A DNA stretch of 64,000 bases, from contig JAKARI010000006.1 of assembly GCA_021819245.1 (NCBI GenBank), forward strand, positions 1 to 64,000, given 5' to 3'. The stretch is from Pseudomonadota bacterium (GTDB taxonomy: Bacteria; Pseudomonadota; Gammaproteobacteria; Acidiferrobacterales; Acidiferrobacteraceae). How positions within the stretch are numbered: the stretch's first letter is position 1; every line of letters begins with the position of its first letter. The notes under the pieces were generated by a model. That model was given only the letters and a program-made list of their open reading frames with translations. It was not told the DNA's origin and searched no databases. Below are positions 52,142-61,516 of this stretch, in pieces. The translations under genes and the position numbers were made by a program.

Positions 52142-52499
52142 AAGGGGGGAGTAAACCCTGTTTGACGGATTCCGGCGGCGAGGCGCGGTTCGGTGCCTGA
52201 CCGCCGTCTTCCTGAATTGAAGGCCCAAGGCCTGAAGGCCCGTCTGGCCCAGCCCACGGCCCAGGGGCGCCTCGTTCCCGTGGCCCCGGGCCGGCCGCGC
52301 AGGGGGCCTGTTGCGCCACGCCTGTCTTGCAGGGCGATTATGGCATGGAGCCGGCCGCCCGTCTTGTGCGCGCAGTGAGGGCGGCCGTGCCTGCATCGAC
52401 CGCACTCGATGTGCCATCAATGTGTCATCGCCCGGTCACGATCGCTGCCGAACATGTCGCCCAGAAGGCACATATCACATGTCCCGGGGAGGGCATCTT
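52142..52499. other. Divergent promoter region of dedA and TonB receptor
   Basis: GC-rich with several GGCC-rich inverted repeats (for example around 52220-52260). I see no riboswitch consensus and no convincing promoter pair. Confidence 0.4.
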
Positions 52500-54929
52500 A
52501 TGGTGGTCAGTGCAGGCATCGCAAGGCGGGCCAGGAAAGGGTCTGGGCTCGGGCCGGGGGGTTATGCCCGTCTATCAGGCGCGATGCTCGCGGCGTTCTC
52601 GATGGTGTGGGGGGCGGCCCGTGCCGTTGATGTCGCATCCCCCGCCCAGCCGCCGGGCGCGGCTTCGGGTATCGATATCGGTGCGGTGCATGCGCAGGCA
52701 CACGAATCGGCCTCCCGTAAGGCACTCAAGAAGACCGACAAGAGGCTTACCGCCAAGCGGATATTCCGGAGCGCGCAGTCCGAGCTCGTGATTGGCCGTC
52801 ATGAGTTAGAGGCCGCGGGCCCGGTGGGTGGCGCGGCGCAGGCGCTTGCGCAATCGCCCGGTGTGCGCGTGGTCAGTACCGGGGCCGTGGGTGCGCAACG
52901 GGCGGCCATCAGTGTCAATGGCATAGAACAGGGGTGGGGTGGCCTGCAGGGGCTGACAGCCAATGGCCTGCTGGCGGTGACCTTCGATGGCGTGCCGATG
53001 AACAACCCCGGATCCGGGCTCTGGGCGACACCCCAGATCCCCGAGATGTCCCTGATCTCGGGCATTAACGTGATCTATGGGCCAGGCGACCCCGATAGCC
53101 GATGGTACGACAGCCTGGGGGGCACGATCGGGTTTATCCCCGTGCAGCCGACCAAGCGCGCCGGTGCCGATTTTGGTGTGACATTCGGCGACTACGGCAC
53201 GCAAGGCTTTCATTTCGCGATGCGTACCGGCTTGCATGACGGCTATTCGGCGGTCCTGGCGGCGGGCACCACCCAGTCGAACGATTATATCCAGTCGCAG
53301 GAGGATGGCTTCGCCAATCCCAGCCATGATCAGGCGATTTTCGGCAAGGTGGTGAAGCTCCTCGCGCATGGCAGCGTGGGGCTGGGGGCGTATGTGGCGC
53401 AGTCGCAGTCGTATCGTCCGGCCTTCATACCGCTTACGCCGATCGCAGGGCTTACAGTAAATGGTTTTACCAGCACGGGTGCCAGCATTCCGGGGCCGCT
53501 TTATAGCGAAACCACATCCGGGTATTACGGTGGCATACCGTTTAGCATATGGCATAAGCAGGTCGTCAATGCCACATATCTCGTTTATATGCCGGTGGAT
53601 CTGGAGTTTTCACCGATTACCACATTTCACGATACGCTCTGGTATCGTCACGGCAATCGCCTGCATAACCACTATAATGACTTCAATCAGGGCGCGGACA
53701 ACCTGTTCGAGTACAACAACCCCCACACCGCGACCATGGGTGACAAGGCCGTTTTTGATTTCGCGCTCCCCCGCAACAGGGTCGCCGTGGGCGGCTATTA
53801 TCTTTATAGCGTCTATAACACACGCAATGCCTTTTACAATCCGCAAGTCACAAGTCCGTCCGGTATCGCGTATACCTATTCGTACCCTGCCGATTATCGC
53901 AGTGGGTACTTCTATCAGAATTTCGCCGCGGCCTTCCTACAAGACCGCATCGCGATCGTGCGGGGCCTGAGCGCAACGCCAGGGGTCCGGGTGGCCTATT
54001 TCGGTACGACCTACGCGAATAACGCGGCGACGGATTTTCCCCAGGCCAACCCCGCCTATGACCCAGAGACCCAGCCCGACAGCTCAACGACCTTCGTCAA
54101 GGCCGAGCCCTCACTCGATATTCGCTATCAATGGACTCGAAATCTCTCACTCTATGCCCAGACCTCGACAGCCTATCAGAATCCGGAGGTCGGTGGAGGC
54201 GGGGGCCCGTATCAGCAGCTGCCATCATCGGCGCTGGTCCCGACGGAGGGCCGCTATGATACGGCGGGGGTGCATGTGCTCGTCAGGCACAGCGGGGCGG
54301 CACGCGACTTCAGGCTCAATCTCGACTACTACCACCTGTCTGTCACCAATCAGTTCATCACCGTGACGACCAGCAATGGCAGTGCCATAGAGGCCACGGG
54401 CGACAGCCTCTATCAGGGCGTCAATCTTTCATCCCAGGACAACCCGATAGGCGGCCTCCATGTGTTCGGGAATCTCGGCTATGAGCGCGCGCATTACGTC
54501 AATTACACGACAGGCGGCGTGGCCTTTGCCGGTCTTGCCGTCCCCTATGTACCAAAGGAGACATTGACGGCCGGCGCCTCCTATCGATATTTCGATCGCG
54601 GGATCGTCTATGATCCCAAGCTTTGGACGACCTTTACCGGGAGCCAGAATATCTTTAACAACCAATCCGGAACGCCGTCGTCGCAGACGCTTCCTGCCTA
54701 CAATATCTGGAACGCCTCATTCGGTGTGACCGTGCCGGTGGGGACCACGGGCGGGCACGCCGATAAGATGCAGATCGTGTTGTCGGTGCTCAACCTTCTG
54801 AACAAGCGCTTCAACGAGTACGCCTACGTCACGTCCGGCGGCTATCTCGGGGGCAATAGCGCGGGGGCAACACTGGGCTATCCCGGGGCCCCGCGCACGT
54901 ATTACGTGTCGGCGAACTTTCACTTTTGA
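52500..54929 (+). CDS. TonB-dependent outer-membrane receptor
   Basis: About 809 residues from ATG 52500, which has GGGAGGG upstream; ATG 52479 is an alternative. An N-terminal export signal with a long basic region precedes Ala-rich helix and AAR-AVD cleavage area. The plug domain (about 90-215: LAQSPGVRVVSTG, FDGVPMNNPGSGLW, VIYGPGDPDSRWYDSLGG) and a 22-strand barrel follow, ending YYVSANFHF with the terminal Phe. The Tyr- and Asn-rich barrel is normal. Substrate unknown: no siderophore, B12 or exbBD genes are close. Confidence 0.93.
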   Translation: MVVSAGIARRARKGSGLGPGGYARLSGAMLAAFSMVWGAARAVDVASPAQPPGAASGIDIGAVHAQAHESASRKALKKTDKRLTAKRIFRSAQSELVIGRHELEAAGPVGGAAQALAQSPGVRVVSTGAVGAQRAAISVNGIEQGWGGLQGLTANGLLAVTFDGVPMNNPGSGLWATPQIPEMSLISGINVIYGPGDPDSRWYDSLGGTIGFIPVQPTKRAGADFGVTFGDYGTQGFHFAMRTGLHDGYSAVLAAGTTQSNDYIQSQEDGFANPSHDQAIFGKVVKLLAHGSVGLGAYVAQSQSYRPAFIPLTPIAGLTVNGFTSTGASIPGPLYSETTSGYYGGIPFSIWHKQVVNATYLVYMPVDLEFSPITTFHDTLWYRHGNRLHNHYNDFNQGADNLFEYNNPHTATMGDKAVFDFALPRNRVAVGGYYLYSVYNTRNAFYNPQVTSPSGIAYTYSYPADYRSGYFYQNFAAAFLQDRIAIVRGLSATPGVRVAYFGTTYANNAATDFPQANPAYDPETQPDSSTTFVKAEPSLDIRYQWTRNLSLYAQTSTAYQNPEVGGGGGPYQQLPSSALVPTEGRYDTAGVHVLVRHSGAARDFRLNLDYYHLSVTNQFITVTTSNGSAIEATGDSLYQGVNLSSQDNPIGGLHVFGNLGYERAHYVNYTTGGVAFAGLAVPYVPKETLTAGASYRYFDRGIVYDPKLWTTFTGSQNIFNNQSGTPSSQTLPAYNIWNASFGVTVPVGTTGGHADKMQIVLSVLNLLNKRFNEYAYVTSGGYLGGNSAGATLGYPGAPRTYYVSANFHF

Positions 54930-55920: not shown

Positions 55921-56196
55921 CCGGGGCTCCGGGGCTTGGTGGTCGCGCTATTCTGACATTCCCGGGCCTTGGAACGGAAGGCTAAAGTCCCGCCCCGAGC
56001 CGACCCCGTCATGTGGGGGTCTCGCGCCGATCAGGGTGTCATCGGGTCGCGGGTGTGCCGGCTCCGGCTGGCGTCGATGGAAGGCCGGCGGCCCCGCGTT
56101 CGTATCCGTAGCGCCAAAGGCGGGAGGCTGGGTGTGCGGCGCAGGCCTTGGTATCATGTCCGCTGCGGCCCATCGCCGCGATCCGGTGAGGAATTC

Positions 56197-56616
56197 ATGA
56201 AGAAACACGGGGGACCACGGCGTCCAGGGGATGATCTCAATGGCGGGCGGCTTGACGCCATCGTGGCGCGCGCCCATAAGGAGGCGAAGACGCGCATGCT
56301 CGGTTACCGCGAGCAGTCACTGCGGCTGCATCCGCATGTCTGCGCGCGCTGCGGCCGTGCGTTCGATCGCAGTCACCTCCATGAACTGACCGTGCACCAC
56401 AAGGATCACAATCACGACAATAACCCCCCCGACGGCAGCAATTGGGAGAATCTCTGCCTGTATTGCCATGATTGGGAGCATCAGAAGTATTCGTACGCGG
56501 TGACCGGGGCCTACGCGGACTTCGGGCTGACGAACGTACCCGCATCGCCCACAGACGCCACACACAACCCGTTTGCGGGCCTGAAGGAGGCGCTTTCTCA
56601 AAAGCGTAAAGACTGA
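56197..56616 (+). CDS. yajD: HNH nuclease YajD family
   Basis: 139 residues from ATG 56197 (GTGAGGAATTC before it). A beta-beta-alpha metal HNH domain: CARCGR, then LTVHHKDHNHDNNP and NLCLYCHDWEH give the Cys pairs and the catalytic His. YajD-type proteins are widespread and poorly characterised putative endonucleases. Convergent with the cold-shock gene. The 276-base gap before it shows no gene. Confidence 0.88.
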   Translation: MKKHGGPRRPGDDLNGGRLDAIVARAHKEAKTRMLGYREQSLRLHPHVCARCGRAFDRSHLHELTVHHKDHNHDNNPPDGSNWENLCLYCHDWEHQKYSYAVTGAYADFGLTNVPASPTDATHNPFAGLKEALSQKRKD

Positions 56617-57256: not shown

Positions 57257-57625
57257 GTGATAATCGACGAGCGAGCGCACAAACGGGTGCGTAGGATTTC
57301 GCTCGATGTGGCCGAGCCTGCGGAGATTCAGGAGAGAGTGCGGGTCTATCTCGCAGTCCTCGGAGTCGGTCAGGCCGCGGCCGAGGAGTGGGCCCGGCAG
57401 GCGTGCGAAGGGGTTACGAGCGCCGGTGAGGCGTTTATGCGGCTGCGCGAGAGATTGGTTGCAGACCTTGCGGCCCGCGCCCCCCATGTCACGGATGACC
57501 CGGAGTGTGCCGCGCTCGCGCGCCTTTCGGTCTGGCTGCACGCGGACCCCGCGAAGCTTGCCGCGCTGCCCCTTGCGCCACCGCTCACGCGCCAGCCGAT
57601 GGCGTCGGAGCGGGTACGTTCATGA
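57257..57625 (+). CDS. Separate N-terminal region of glucosyltransferase OpgH
   Basis: 122 residues from GTG 57257 with GAAGGGGAT upstream. No membrane helix; soluble and helical. Its end (LAALPLAPPLTRQPM) resembles the segment ending in RSSMFPDPWR that precedes the first membrane helix of E. coli OpgH, and the next gene starts where the membrane part would begin, with an ATGA overlap. I infer that it is the cytoplasmic regulatory N-terminus of OpgH encoded separately. The similarity is short, so this needs a profile search. Confidence 0.65.
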   Translation: MIIDERAHKRVRRISLDVAEPAEIQERVRVYLAVLGVGQAAAEEWARQACEGVTSAGEAFMRLRERLVADLAARAPHVTDDPECAALARLSVWLHADPAKLAALPLAPPLTRQPMASERVRS

Positions 57626-59739
57626 GTGGCGCCACACGACGGGGACCGGCCTCGCGTCATGGTGGGATGTGGCGAGGCCTTTTGTTGGGGCTTCTGGTCC
57701 TGATACCGGGCGTTGTGGCCGGCGAGTTTCTGCTCGAGGTGCTCCCGCACCCCGGTTATACCGGCCTAAACGACGCGCTTGCGATAGTATTCGGATTCCT
57801 GTTCGGATGGATATCGATCGGCCTTTGGATATCGCTTGCCGGGGCGGTGTTGCTGCTGTTTCGAACGCGATCGCGCCTTATGGCGCCGGCCTCCACGACC
57901 GGTGACGCGCGCGTCGCGCTGGTCGTCCCGGTGTTTCGCGAGGACCCGCATGCGGTGTGCGCGCGGGTAGAGAGCGTATATCGGTCCCTGGAGGCCGCAG
58001 GGCGGCTTACGCAATGCGATTTCTTCCTGCTAAGCGACAGCAACGATGCCGACGCCTGGGTGGAGGAGGAGGTCGCGTGGGCAGGATTGCGCGCCCGATT
58101 GGGAATCGAGGCGCGCGTCTACTACCGCCGCCGGCACATCAATATCAAGCGCAAGAGCGGCAATATCGCGGACTTCTGCCGGCGCTGGGGGTCCCAATAC
58201 CGTTATATGGTGGTACTCGACGCCGATAGCCTCATGACCGGCGAGGTCTTGGGGCGGCTCGTTGATCTCATGGAGCATAACCCCTCGGTGGGGCTGATTC
58301 AGACCTTGCCGGCGGCTATTCACCAGGACACCCTGTTTGGGCGTATCCAGCAGTTTGCGAGCCGGTTGTACGGCCCGGTGTTCGCCGCCGGCCTGCATTT
58401 CTGGCATATGGGCGAGGGCCATTATTGGGGCCATAACGCTATCGTCCGCGTGGCGCCTTTCATGCGCCATTGCGCGTTGCCGCGGCTGCCCGGTTCCGGT
58501 GCATTCGGCGGCGAGATCATGAGCCACGATTTTGTGGAGGCGGCGTTGCTGCGCCGCGCCGGATGGGAGGTGTGGCTGGAGCCCGGGCTCGAGGGCAGCT
58601 ATGAGGAGACCCCGCCGACCTTGCTCGATGAGTTGAAGCGCGACCGGCGCTGGGCGCAAGGCAATATTCAGCACACGCGGCTCATTTTTGCCCGGGGATT
58701 TGTGCCGCTGCATCGGGCGGTATTCGTAAACGGGATCATGTCCTACGGGTCATCGCTCTTGTGGCTTGCGTTTTTGCTGCTATCGAGCACCGAGGTGGTC
58801 TTGCATGTTTTGGTCCCGCCGCGCTATTTCCCGCATGCCCATGTCTTGTTTCCGGTGTGGCCCGTGTGGCATCCGCAATGGGCGGCGACCCTGTTTTGGT
58901 TTACGCTAGCGATCCTGTTCATTCCTAAACTCATGTCGATTGCGCTTGCCATCATAAACCGCCGCACGCGCGGTTTCGGGGGGGTGGCGCACCTGCTCGC
59001 CGGGGTGCTAGCCGAGAGTCTGGTATCGGCGCTGCTTGCGCCGGTGCGCATGCTCTTTCATACGATGTTCGTCATCTCTGTACTGATGGGGCGCAAGACC
59101 CCATGGGGCCCACAGGTGCGTGGCAATGCCAGCACGGGCTGGCGGGAGGCGGTGCGCTATCACGGCCCCGGTACGGCGCTGGCGATCGCCTGGGGAGGGC
59201 TGATCTATGGTCTTAGCCCCGCGTACTTCTGGTGGCTTCTGCCGGTCATGGGCGCCTGGGTGGCGGCGATACCGCTGTCGGTATGGCTAAGCCGCGTGGG
59301 GCCAGGCCAAGCGGCGCGGCGTCTCGGGCTTTTTGTGACACCCGAGGAGGCCCATCCGCCGGCGCTCATGCGTCTTTATCAGGAGGCCCTCGCAGCGCCT
59401 GGCTTTACGCGCTGCACCGCAGCCCGGGGGTTCCTTGCGGCTATCGTTGACCCGGGGGTAAACGCGCTGCACTGCGCGCTCTTGCGCCCCTCCGACAGCC
59501 GTCATGAGGGGACGGTATTGAGCCGCCAGCAGTTGATCCTGGCGGCCATAAAGGATGGGCCGGCGGCGCTTGACGCCACCGAGCGGTTGCGGCTTTTGAG
59601 TGATCGTGACAGCACCGCGGCGCTGCACTGGCAGGTGTGGGCGTTGCGCGCGCCGCGTGCGCGGTATTGGCTTGCGGACAATATCACGATGACGACCGTC
59701 GAGCAGCCGACGCCGCCGATCGCTCAGGTTCATCATTAA
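57622..59739 (+). CDS. opgH: Osmoregulated periplasmic glucan glucosyltransferase OpgH (catalytic and membrane part)
   Basis: 705 residues against about 850 in E. coli; it lacks the long cytoplasmic N-terminus. Family 2 processive glucosyltransferase that makes and exports beta-1,2-glucan backbones. Two N-terminal helices, then VPVFREDPHAV, YYRRRHINIKRKSGNIADFCRRWGS-type region (seen as KRKSGNIADFCRRWGSQY), the Asp motif VLDADSLM, SHDFVEAALLRRAGW, and the R-x-x-R-W motif in DRRWAQGN. Several helices follow. ATG 57622 overlaps the small gene before it (ATGA). opgG comes next, the reverse of the E. coli opgG-opgH order. Confidence 0.93.
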   Translation: MSGATRRGPASRHGGMWRGLLLGLLVLIPGVVAGEFLLEVLPHPGYTGLNDALAIVFGFLFGWISIGLWISLAGAVLLLFRTRSRLMAPASTTGDARVALVVPVFREDPHAVCARVESVYRSLEAAGRLTQCDFFLLSDSNDADAWVEEEVAWAGLRARLGIEARVYYRRRHINIKRKSGNIADFCRRWGSQYRYMVVLDADSLMTGEVLGRLVDLMEHNPSVGLIQTLPAAIHQDTLFGRIQQFASRLYGPVFAAGLHFWHMGEGHYWGHNAIVRVAPFMRHCALPRLPGSGAFGGEIMSHDFVEAALLRRAGWEVWLEPGLEGSYEETPPTLLDELKRDRRWAQGNIQHTRLIFARGFVPLHRAVFVNGIMSYGSSLLWLAFLLLSSTEVVLHVLVPPRYFPHAHVLFPVWPVWHPQWAATLFWFTLAILFIPKLMSIALAIINRRTRGFGGVAHLLAGVLAESLVSALLAPVRMLFHTMFVISVLMGRKTPWGPQVRGNASTGWREAVRYHGPGTALAIAWGGLIYGLSPAYFWWLLPVMGAWVAAIPLSVWLSRVGPGQAARRLGLFVTPEEAHPPALMRLYQEALAAPGFTRCTAARGFLAAIVDPGVNALHCALLRPSDSRHEGTVLSRQQLILAAIKDGPAALDATERLRLLSDRDSTAALHWQVWALRAPRARYWLADNITMTTVEQPTPPIAQVHH

Positions 59740-59776
59740 GTGGATGGCGCATGATGCAATATATCAAGGGGGGGTT

Positions 59777-61516
59777 GTGAGTAAGCACGGTATCTGGCCG
59801 CTGGTTATCTTGAGTACCGCCGTGACCTTGGGCGGCTGCGCCACCACGGGCGCCGTGCGCCAGGTCAGGATTGAGGCCCAGGCCGCCGATGCCAGGGGCC
59901 GGCAGGCGCTGGCGGCGGTAAAGGCCCTGCGCCAAAAGCGCCAGTCGTCCGATCAGGCGCTCGCGCAGACCCTCGCCCGCATCACGCAGGAGCAAGGGCG
60001 GCTTCTTGCGGATATCAGGCGGCTGCGGGCGCGGGAGCGGCGGCCGGCGCCGCCAAAGGGCGTCATGCGGCCCGCGATGATATCCAAGGCCGCTGCCAAT
60101 GCCTTTTTTGGGCAGGTCGTGGCGCGTGCCCGGGCGCTAGCCGCCGCCCCCTATAAGGCGCCGGGCGAGGTGCCCAAGGTCCTGCAGCAGCTCGATTTCT
60201 CGCAATACAGCAAGATCTCCTACGTCGGCCGCGTCCCCGGGTGGCCGGCCGGCCGGCCATTTCATATCCAGCTGTATCCCGCCGGCTATCTCTTTACATG
60301 GCCGGAAAAGATCCGGGTCATCGCCGGTGCGCACAGGTTCGTTCCGCATTTACCCGTTACCGCAGCCGGTGATCCTGCGCTCGCGGCGCGCCTGCCCAAG
60401 GATATCCCCCCGGCCGGCTTTAGCGCCTATACGGGTTTTGGCAGGGGTCCTGCGGTCGACGAGTTTTTGTCATTTCTCGGGGCGAGCTATTTCCGCGCGG
60501 TCGGGGCCGGGCAGTCCTGGGGCCTGTCGGCGCGTGGAGTGGCGGTCGATACGGCGCTTGCCCACCGCGCCGAAGAGTTCCCGTATTTCCGGGAATTCTG
60601 GTTATTCGTGGCGCATAAGGGTGCGCATGATCTCGCGTTTTGCGCATTGCTCGACAGCCCGAGCCTGACGGGCGCATACCGCTTTGTGGTTCATCCTGGC
60701 GCCGACACCGTGGTTGATGTGAAGGAGGTATTGTTCGAGCGCACGCATGTCAGGCGCCTGGGTATAGCCCCGCTTACCAGCATGTTTCTGCAGGGCCGAT
60801 TCAGCCAACATCGCTTTGACCCCTTGATTCGGTCGGCACACGATTCCGATGGCATGGCCGTGGCCTTGCCCGGGAACGGGCGGCTGTGGTGGCCGCTGCG
60901 TGATCCCAAACGCATTGCCCTCTATCGTTTCCCAGAGGTCAACCCAGCTGGGTTCGGGCTTATGCAGAGGGCGCGCCGCGCCGGCGATTATCGCGCCTAC
61001 GGCATGCATTATGAGCGGCGCCCGAATGCCTGGGTCACGCCGGAGGGCAACTGGGGCCCCGGGCATCTGGTCTTGGTCGAATTGCCGACCGATAGCCAGA
61101 CCAATGACAATATCTCGGTGTTCTGGGTGCCGAAGGGCCAGCCGCCCGCGCTTTCCCCCATGACCTTCCATTACCGGATCGACTGGTCCGGCGCTAATCC
61201 GCGCGGTATCCATATCGGTTACGTCAGCGCCTGGCGCCACGCCCGCCGCGTACCGCACGGCGAGACCTATGTCATCGATTTCGCGGGGGCGGTGCTTGCG
61301 CGTTTCGATCCGGCGGCGCTTACCCCCGTCGTGCATGTCTTTGGCCCGGCCCGCGCGGTCACTCCCTGGCTTACCCGCAATGCCGCCGGCGACATCCGCA
61401 TGCAGTTTGGCGTCGTGCGTACCGGTTCAGGGCCGGTCACCATTCATGCGGCACTCCTGCATGGCGCCAAACGCGTGACCGAGACCTGGGCCAATGCCCT
61501 GCCGATGGCGCGATGA
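59777..61516 (+). CDS. opgG: Glucan biosynthesis protein OpgG, predicted lipoprotein with coiled coil
   Basis: 579 residues from GTG 59777, with a G-rich ribosome site. The lipobox LGGC (about 19-22) after a short hydrophobic stretch predicts lipid attachment; +2 is Ala, so outer-membrane sorting is expected. Residues 30-85 form a Gln/Ala/Arg-rich coiled coil not seen in E. coli OpgG. The MdoG domain (about 110-575) is clear: DFSQYSKISYVGR, FEVNPAGFG-type (FPEVNPAGFGLMQR), RRPNAWVTPEGNWG, and VLVELPTDSQTNDNI. OpgG-type proteins make beta-1,6 branches on glucans in the periplasm. Confidence 0.92.
   Translation: MSKHGIWPLVILSTAVTLGGCATTGAVRQVRIEAQAADARGRQALAAVKALRQKRQSSDQALAQTLARITQEQGRLLADIRRLRARERRPAPPKGVMRPAMISKAAANAFFGQVVARARALAAAPYKAPGEVPKVLQQLDFSQYSKISYVGRVPGWPAGRPFHIQLYPAGYLFTWPEKIRVIAGAHRFVPHLPVTAAGDPALAARLPKDIPPAGFSAYTGFGRGPAVDEFLSFLGASYFRAVGAGQSWGLSARGVAVDTALAHRAEEFPYFREFWLFVAHKGAHDLAFCALLDSPSLTGAYRFVVHPGADTVVDVKEVLFERTHVRRLGIAPLTSMFLQGRFSQHRFDPLIRSAHDSDGMAVALPGNGRLWWPLRDPKRIALYRFPEVNPAGFGLMQRARRAGDYRAYGMHYERRPNAWVTPEGNWGPGHLVLVELPTDSQTNDNISVFWVPKGQPPALSPMTFHYRIDWSGANPRGIHIGYVSAWRHARRVPHGETYVIDFAGAVLARFDPAALTPVVHVFGPARAVTPWLTRNAAGDIRMQFGVVRTGSGPVTIHAALLHGAKRVTETWANALPMAR

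Follow-up and report, generated by a model that had tools for sequence, protein, structure and literature searches.

Why does an acid-loving gammaproteobacterium of the Acidiferrobacteraceae carry its glucan synthase OpgH in two genes? OpgH is the textbook example of a metabolic enzyme with a second job, the control of cell size, which it performs through its N-terminal domain. In the DNA studied here (the window: 64,000 nucleotides from a genome of 2.25 Mb), a soluble 122-residue protein, ORF1, is encoded on the forward strand at 57257..57625, from a GTG start at 57257 to a TGA stop at 57623-57625. The ATG of opgH lies at 57622, and this gene (57622..59739, forward strand) encodes a 705-residue membrane glucosyltransferase that, compared with its relatives, has no N-terminal region of its own. 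The sequence-only reading had described this arrangement, and its coordinates, lengths and four-base ATGA overlap all hold. The 705-residue protein is an OpgH/MdoH. It scores 858 bits with the NCBIfam model NF003958 (curated cut-off, 419), it also matches GT2 families and its gene adjoins opgG (MdoG; 59744..61516, forward strand; PF04349, E=6e-127), the third gene of the cluster.

Some features of the surroundings were also recorded. The N-terminus of OpgG is lipoprotein-like (LGGC) and continues into an alanine-rich coiled coil resembling Lpp/OprI, with a similar start in relatives; OpgG matches NF040598 at E=3e-5, under the cut-off of that model. Upstream of the cluster, the open reading frame at 55969-56616 carries a CxxC...HH...NLxxLCxxCH pattern which, by eye, recalls a YajD-type HNH nuclease, and a long one at 52311-54929 resembles, again by eye, a TonB-dependent outer-membrane receptor.

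The relationship of ORF1 to the N-termini of one-piece OpgHs was examined with two profiles, neither containing any sequence from ORF1's own family. One was built from five OpgHs of another family of the same order, in which the domain and OpgH share one continuous reading frame (L013, L015, L016, L019, L020). The other drew on 47 distantly related fused OpgHs, among them those of E. coli and Pseudomonas. Searched against the 1365 open reading frames of the window, both ranked ORF1 first, at E=4.4e-17 (next match, 1.6) and E=4.9e-4 (next match, 0.21), respectively. When the 47-member profile was searched against the 24,921 open reading frames of all loci, every match with E<0.9 beyond the training set was either an OpgH or the reading frame directly upstream of one. 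Iterated profiles partly contain their own matches; the independent homology test is that of the two fused-N-terminus profiles against the window. The alignment agrees: the ORF1 tail, PPLTRQPMASERVRS, pairs with MPEAKRSSMFPDPWRTN of E. coli OpgH, the segment preceding the first helix. The likeness that the sequence-only reading had seen at this end of ORF1 is thus borne out, and sequence comparison supports homology between ORF1 and the N-terminus of OpgH. The tail (57566..57622, forward strand) carries a PPLxRQxMASER motif, in which R112 and M115 are invariant across 22 aligned rows; R27, Y31, L32, L35, A59 and L63 are invariant in the helical part. Against Pfam and NCBIfam, none of 22 members of the domain family exceeded a curated cut-off, the DUF1110 match (E=0.008) also lying below it. 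The reading of ORF1 as a part of OpgH gives this family of short hypothetical proteins, which these models do not cover, a name and a testable function.

ORF1 evolves as a protein-coding gene. Read in its own frame, it gives dN/dS values of 0.14-0.45, which indicate purifying selection, and its two alternative frames show the opposite pattern; for OpgH, dN/dS is 0.08-0.12. AlphaFold predicts that ORF1 folds independently, with five helices (residues 21-35, 39-50, 56-74, 86-94 and 98-102) in a folded part spanning residues 21-102 (57317..57562, forward strand). Mean pLDDT is 91-96 in blocks across residues 21-100, and the tail is loose with low pLDDT. A Foldseek search with this fold returned no match under E=2.4. 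Kinship to the helical N-domain of the FtsY/SRP GTPases was considered and set aside, the Z-scores (at most 5.9) being in the range of common helical bundles. Searching by sequence, we found no solved OpgH structure.

Other genomes share the split. In a comparison sample of about 200 relatives, every genome of the family with an intact 5′ end has it, 13 with ATGA, one with TGATG (L011) and one with GTGA (L023). Outside the family, it was found in several gammaproteobacterial families, Ectothiorhodospiraceae, Lysobacteraceae and delta-type metagenome bins. At least 37 surveyed loci beyond the family, duplicates excluded, have a significant separate N-domain reading frame directly upstream of a short OpgH, most of them with ATGA-type coupling. 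Additional separate upstream reading frames were seen by eye at loci where the profile match is not significant, Verrucomicrobia among them. At six loci from Verrucomicrobia and some proteobacteria (L064, L069, L072, L073, L111, L112), the separate reading frame beside opgH has a probable transmembrane helix at its end, which would suit a membrane-anchored partner. The domain is tied to opgH. It occurs in 22 of 96 relatives, each time in single copy and always at opgH, beside it or fused to it; it occurs in none of the 68 without an OpgH-grade match. Given this pattern and the ATGA coupling, the suggestion that a separate subunit could be exchanged or regulated independently finds no support. 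Two congeners (G007, G012) have neither opgH nor ORF1; their assemblies are incomplete, and the observation is consistent with loss as a unit.

Which of the two forms is older was addressed with a bootstrapped tree of 95 OpgH cores over 490 columns, in which some row labels were assigned by eye and the overall root is not fixed. OpgHs with a C-terminal extension form a clade with 100/100 support. Within this long-OpgH clade the separate form is basal, and the fused forms (E. coli/Pseudomonas, Desulfobacteraceae and those of the neighbouring family) are nested. With a separate ancestor, three fusions suffice; a fused ancestor requires five changes, a number that rises to ten when fissions are the sole event permitted. 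The preferred order reverses only when a fusion costs about five times as much as a fission. The basal position of the separate form and the count of three fusions against ten fissions therefore suggest that E. coli OpgH is the derived, fused form. The two-gene OpgH is probably the older state, and the one-piece enzyme of E. coli a later fusion. The description of this locus as a split OpgH thus stands in that the frames are truly separate and are kept so by relatives; it does not stand in so far as it implies a broken OpgH.

The same comparisons bear on whether the two frames could be an artefact, a recoding site or a relic. A sequencing frameshift joining the frames, which the sequence-only reading had named as a possible source of the split, is excluded because all intact genomes of the family, one assembled in a single contig included, carry the same split. 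A programmed -1 frameshift at the overlap, yielding in addition a full-length fused OpgH, would agree with the position of opgH in the -1 frame relative to ORF1 and with an opgH frame that stays open for 41 codons upstream. However, the 60 bases at the end of ORF1 contain no slippery heptamer, and such a site is absent from the window and from most relatives alike. Moreover, L011 has TGATG, and other split loci show gaps of up to 284 bases and different frame relations. Without a slippery site and with such variable spacing, programmed frameshifting was rejected as highly improbable. Lastly, the split could be a degenerate, possibly non-functional remnant of a formerly fused gene. Gene fissions do occur, and since some OpgHs, that of Caulobacter included, entirely lack the helical domain, this domain is not universally needed. 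Against such decay stand dN/dS values far below 1 that are specific to the frame, the retention of the split throughout the family wherever the 5′ end is intact, and the nesting of fused forms inside split ones on the tree. We give this explanation hardly any credence.

The junction itself suggests how two separate products would be made. From the sequence, the ATGA overlap (57622..57625, forward strand) likely couples translation of ORF1 and opgH by termination-reinitiation. A GGAG at 57607..57610 (forward strand), within the conserved SER codons, is a possible ribosome site for opgH; several relatives have AGAG. A stop/start offset of -1 (ATGA, GTGA or TTGA) is found in 23 of 38 split loci, the others including the gapped arrangements mentioned above.

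Where ORF1 might act is indicated by an extension at the C-terminus of OpgH (about residues 590-705; 59389..59736, forward strand). This extension is present in 88 of 91 loci with an N-domain, fused or separate, versus 51 of 101 without a significant domain match (Fisher p=5e-14, which is indicative only because the loci are related). According to a published comparison of predicted models, the N-terminal and C-terminal extensions of E. coli OpgH come together as a single enlargement of the cytoplasmic domain, which Caulobacter OpgH does not have (PMC11389396). From the co-occurrence and this joint fold, we infer that ORF1 most likely docks on the C-terminal extension, its probable docking partner, and that the two proteins operate jointly as the synthase. 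In our model of a naturally fused relative (L041; pTM 0.83), the linker and motif have pLDDT below 50, too low for a contact of the tail to be claimed.

We therefore favor, with a probability of roughly 0.7, a reading in which ORF1 is a partner subunit that OpgH cannot do without, coupled to it in translation and acting much as OpgI does in Rhodobacter. The operon ORF1-opgH-opgG would yield a two-subunit glucan synthase, in which OpgH would polymerise glucose from UDP-glucose and then carry the product across the inner membrane. ORF1, a small cytoplasmic five-helix protein, would place its PPLxRQxMASER tail where fused OpgHs have the residues preceding their first transmembrane helix, near the C-terminal extension. 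Termination at the TGA and restart at the overlapping ATG would keep the two proteins in step. Physical binding of ORF1 to OpgH and a need for ORF1 in activity are presumed here; ORF1 would probably be required for OpgH stability or activity, as OpgI is for OpgH in Rhodobacter. Indeed, Cogez in 2002 reportedly found opgG, opgI and opgH each to be needed in R. sphaeroides for synthesis of the glucan backbone. The R. sphaeroides operon is given as opgGIH-opgC (Cogez 2002, as cited in PMC10514313), and the opgI-opgH pair of this species complements an E. coli strain deleted for opgH (PMC10514313).

OpgI and ORF1 are alike in being small separate genes directly before opgH. They differ in that the OpgI-like protein of Sulfitobacter (56 residues), which stands in for that of R. 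sphaeroides, has no helical domain. Its motif PPAAPLAMPRQTLER resembles the ORF1 tail, though the likeness is not significant. A profile of the N-terminal motif of short-clade OpgHs finds the Sulfitobacter protein (1.7e-6) and does not find ORF1, and profile-profile comparison of the ORF1 tail with the OpgI-type motif, again using the Sulfitobacter stand-in, gave a probability of 0.2%, which does not establish homology.

ORF1 could instead be mainly a free division regulator that leaves the enzyme, binds FtsZ and reports UDP-glucose status. On their own, residues 1-138 of E. coli OpgH bind FtsZ and prevent it from assembling, and residues 83-101, EAKRSSMFPDPWRTNPVGR, are sufficient for the division block (PMC3723540); the latter overlap the best-conserved stretch of the ORF1 tail. 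However, ORF1 does not retain W94, the aromatic part of this peptide, and inhibition is not abolished when those 18 residues are deleted from E. coli OpgH (PMC3723540). The domain is also strictly linked to opgH and lost with it, which fits a part of the enzyme better than an independent regulator. We consider a mainly free regulator unlikely, while control of FtsZ by ORF1 is possible from its sequence. That the tail motif is so widespread among OpgHs suggests, first of all, that it serves the synthase. Returning to ORF1 as a synthase subunit, one may tentatively go further, at somewhat less than even odds: the cell-size domain of E. coli would descend from an ancient separate synthase subunit through at least three fusions, and its FtsZ peptide would have been recruited from a docking surface. 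This extension also takes the subunit as present across many bacterial lineages. If the N-domain is indeed a fused partner subunit, its first job lies in the synthase, and genomes with a separate domain are natural constructs for telling residues that serve glucan synthesis from those that serve division.

Relative to known systems, the two-gene arrangement looks like a new variant of OpgH, and the direction of change, with E. coli derived, looks the more interesting point. We found no description of a two-gene OpgH in the open literature searched. E. coli OpgH (MdoH) belongs to the same catalytic family, and its likeness to the present pair extends to the profile matches of fused N-termini with ORF1 and to the alignment of the tail with the 83-101 region. 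It differs in having the N-domain fused rather than in a separate gene, in helices that are less well conserved than here, and in its W94 and the stretch that links the motif to the first helix, neither of which ORF1 keeps. The gene order is H-G here and G-H in E. coli. Among solved structures, the best match of the model of the fused relative L041 was BcsA. BcsA and other processive GT2 synthases are polymerising, translocating enzymes of the same kind, but the OpgH system has neither PilZ nor BcsB, and the fold searches gave no clear structural relative for the helical domain of the ORF1 type. In another acidophile, Acidithiobacillus ferrooxidans, a reading frame of unknown function lies between mdoG and mdoH (PMC6070983); judged from that paper's mention, it resembles ORF1 in being separate and directly beside mdoH. 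Finally, in some short-clade OpgHs without an N-domain (L116, L169 and L170; also L124, L167 and L168), a PPxxPxxMPxQxL-like motif, similar to that of the Sulfitobacter protein, stands at the C-terminus and not at the N-terminus, a placement that, as a lead, would fit a peptide acting from either end or in trans.
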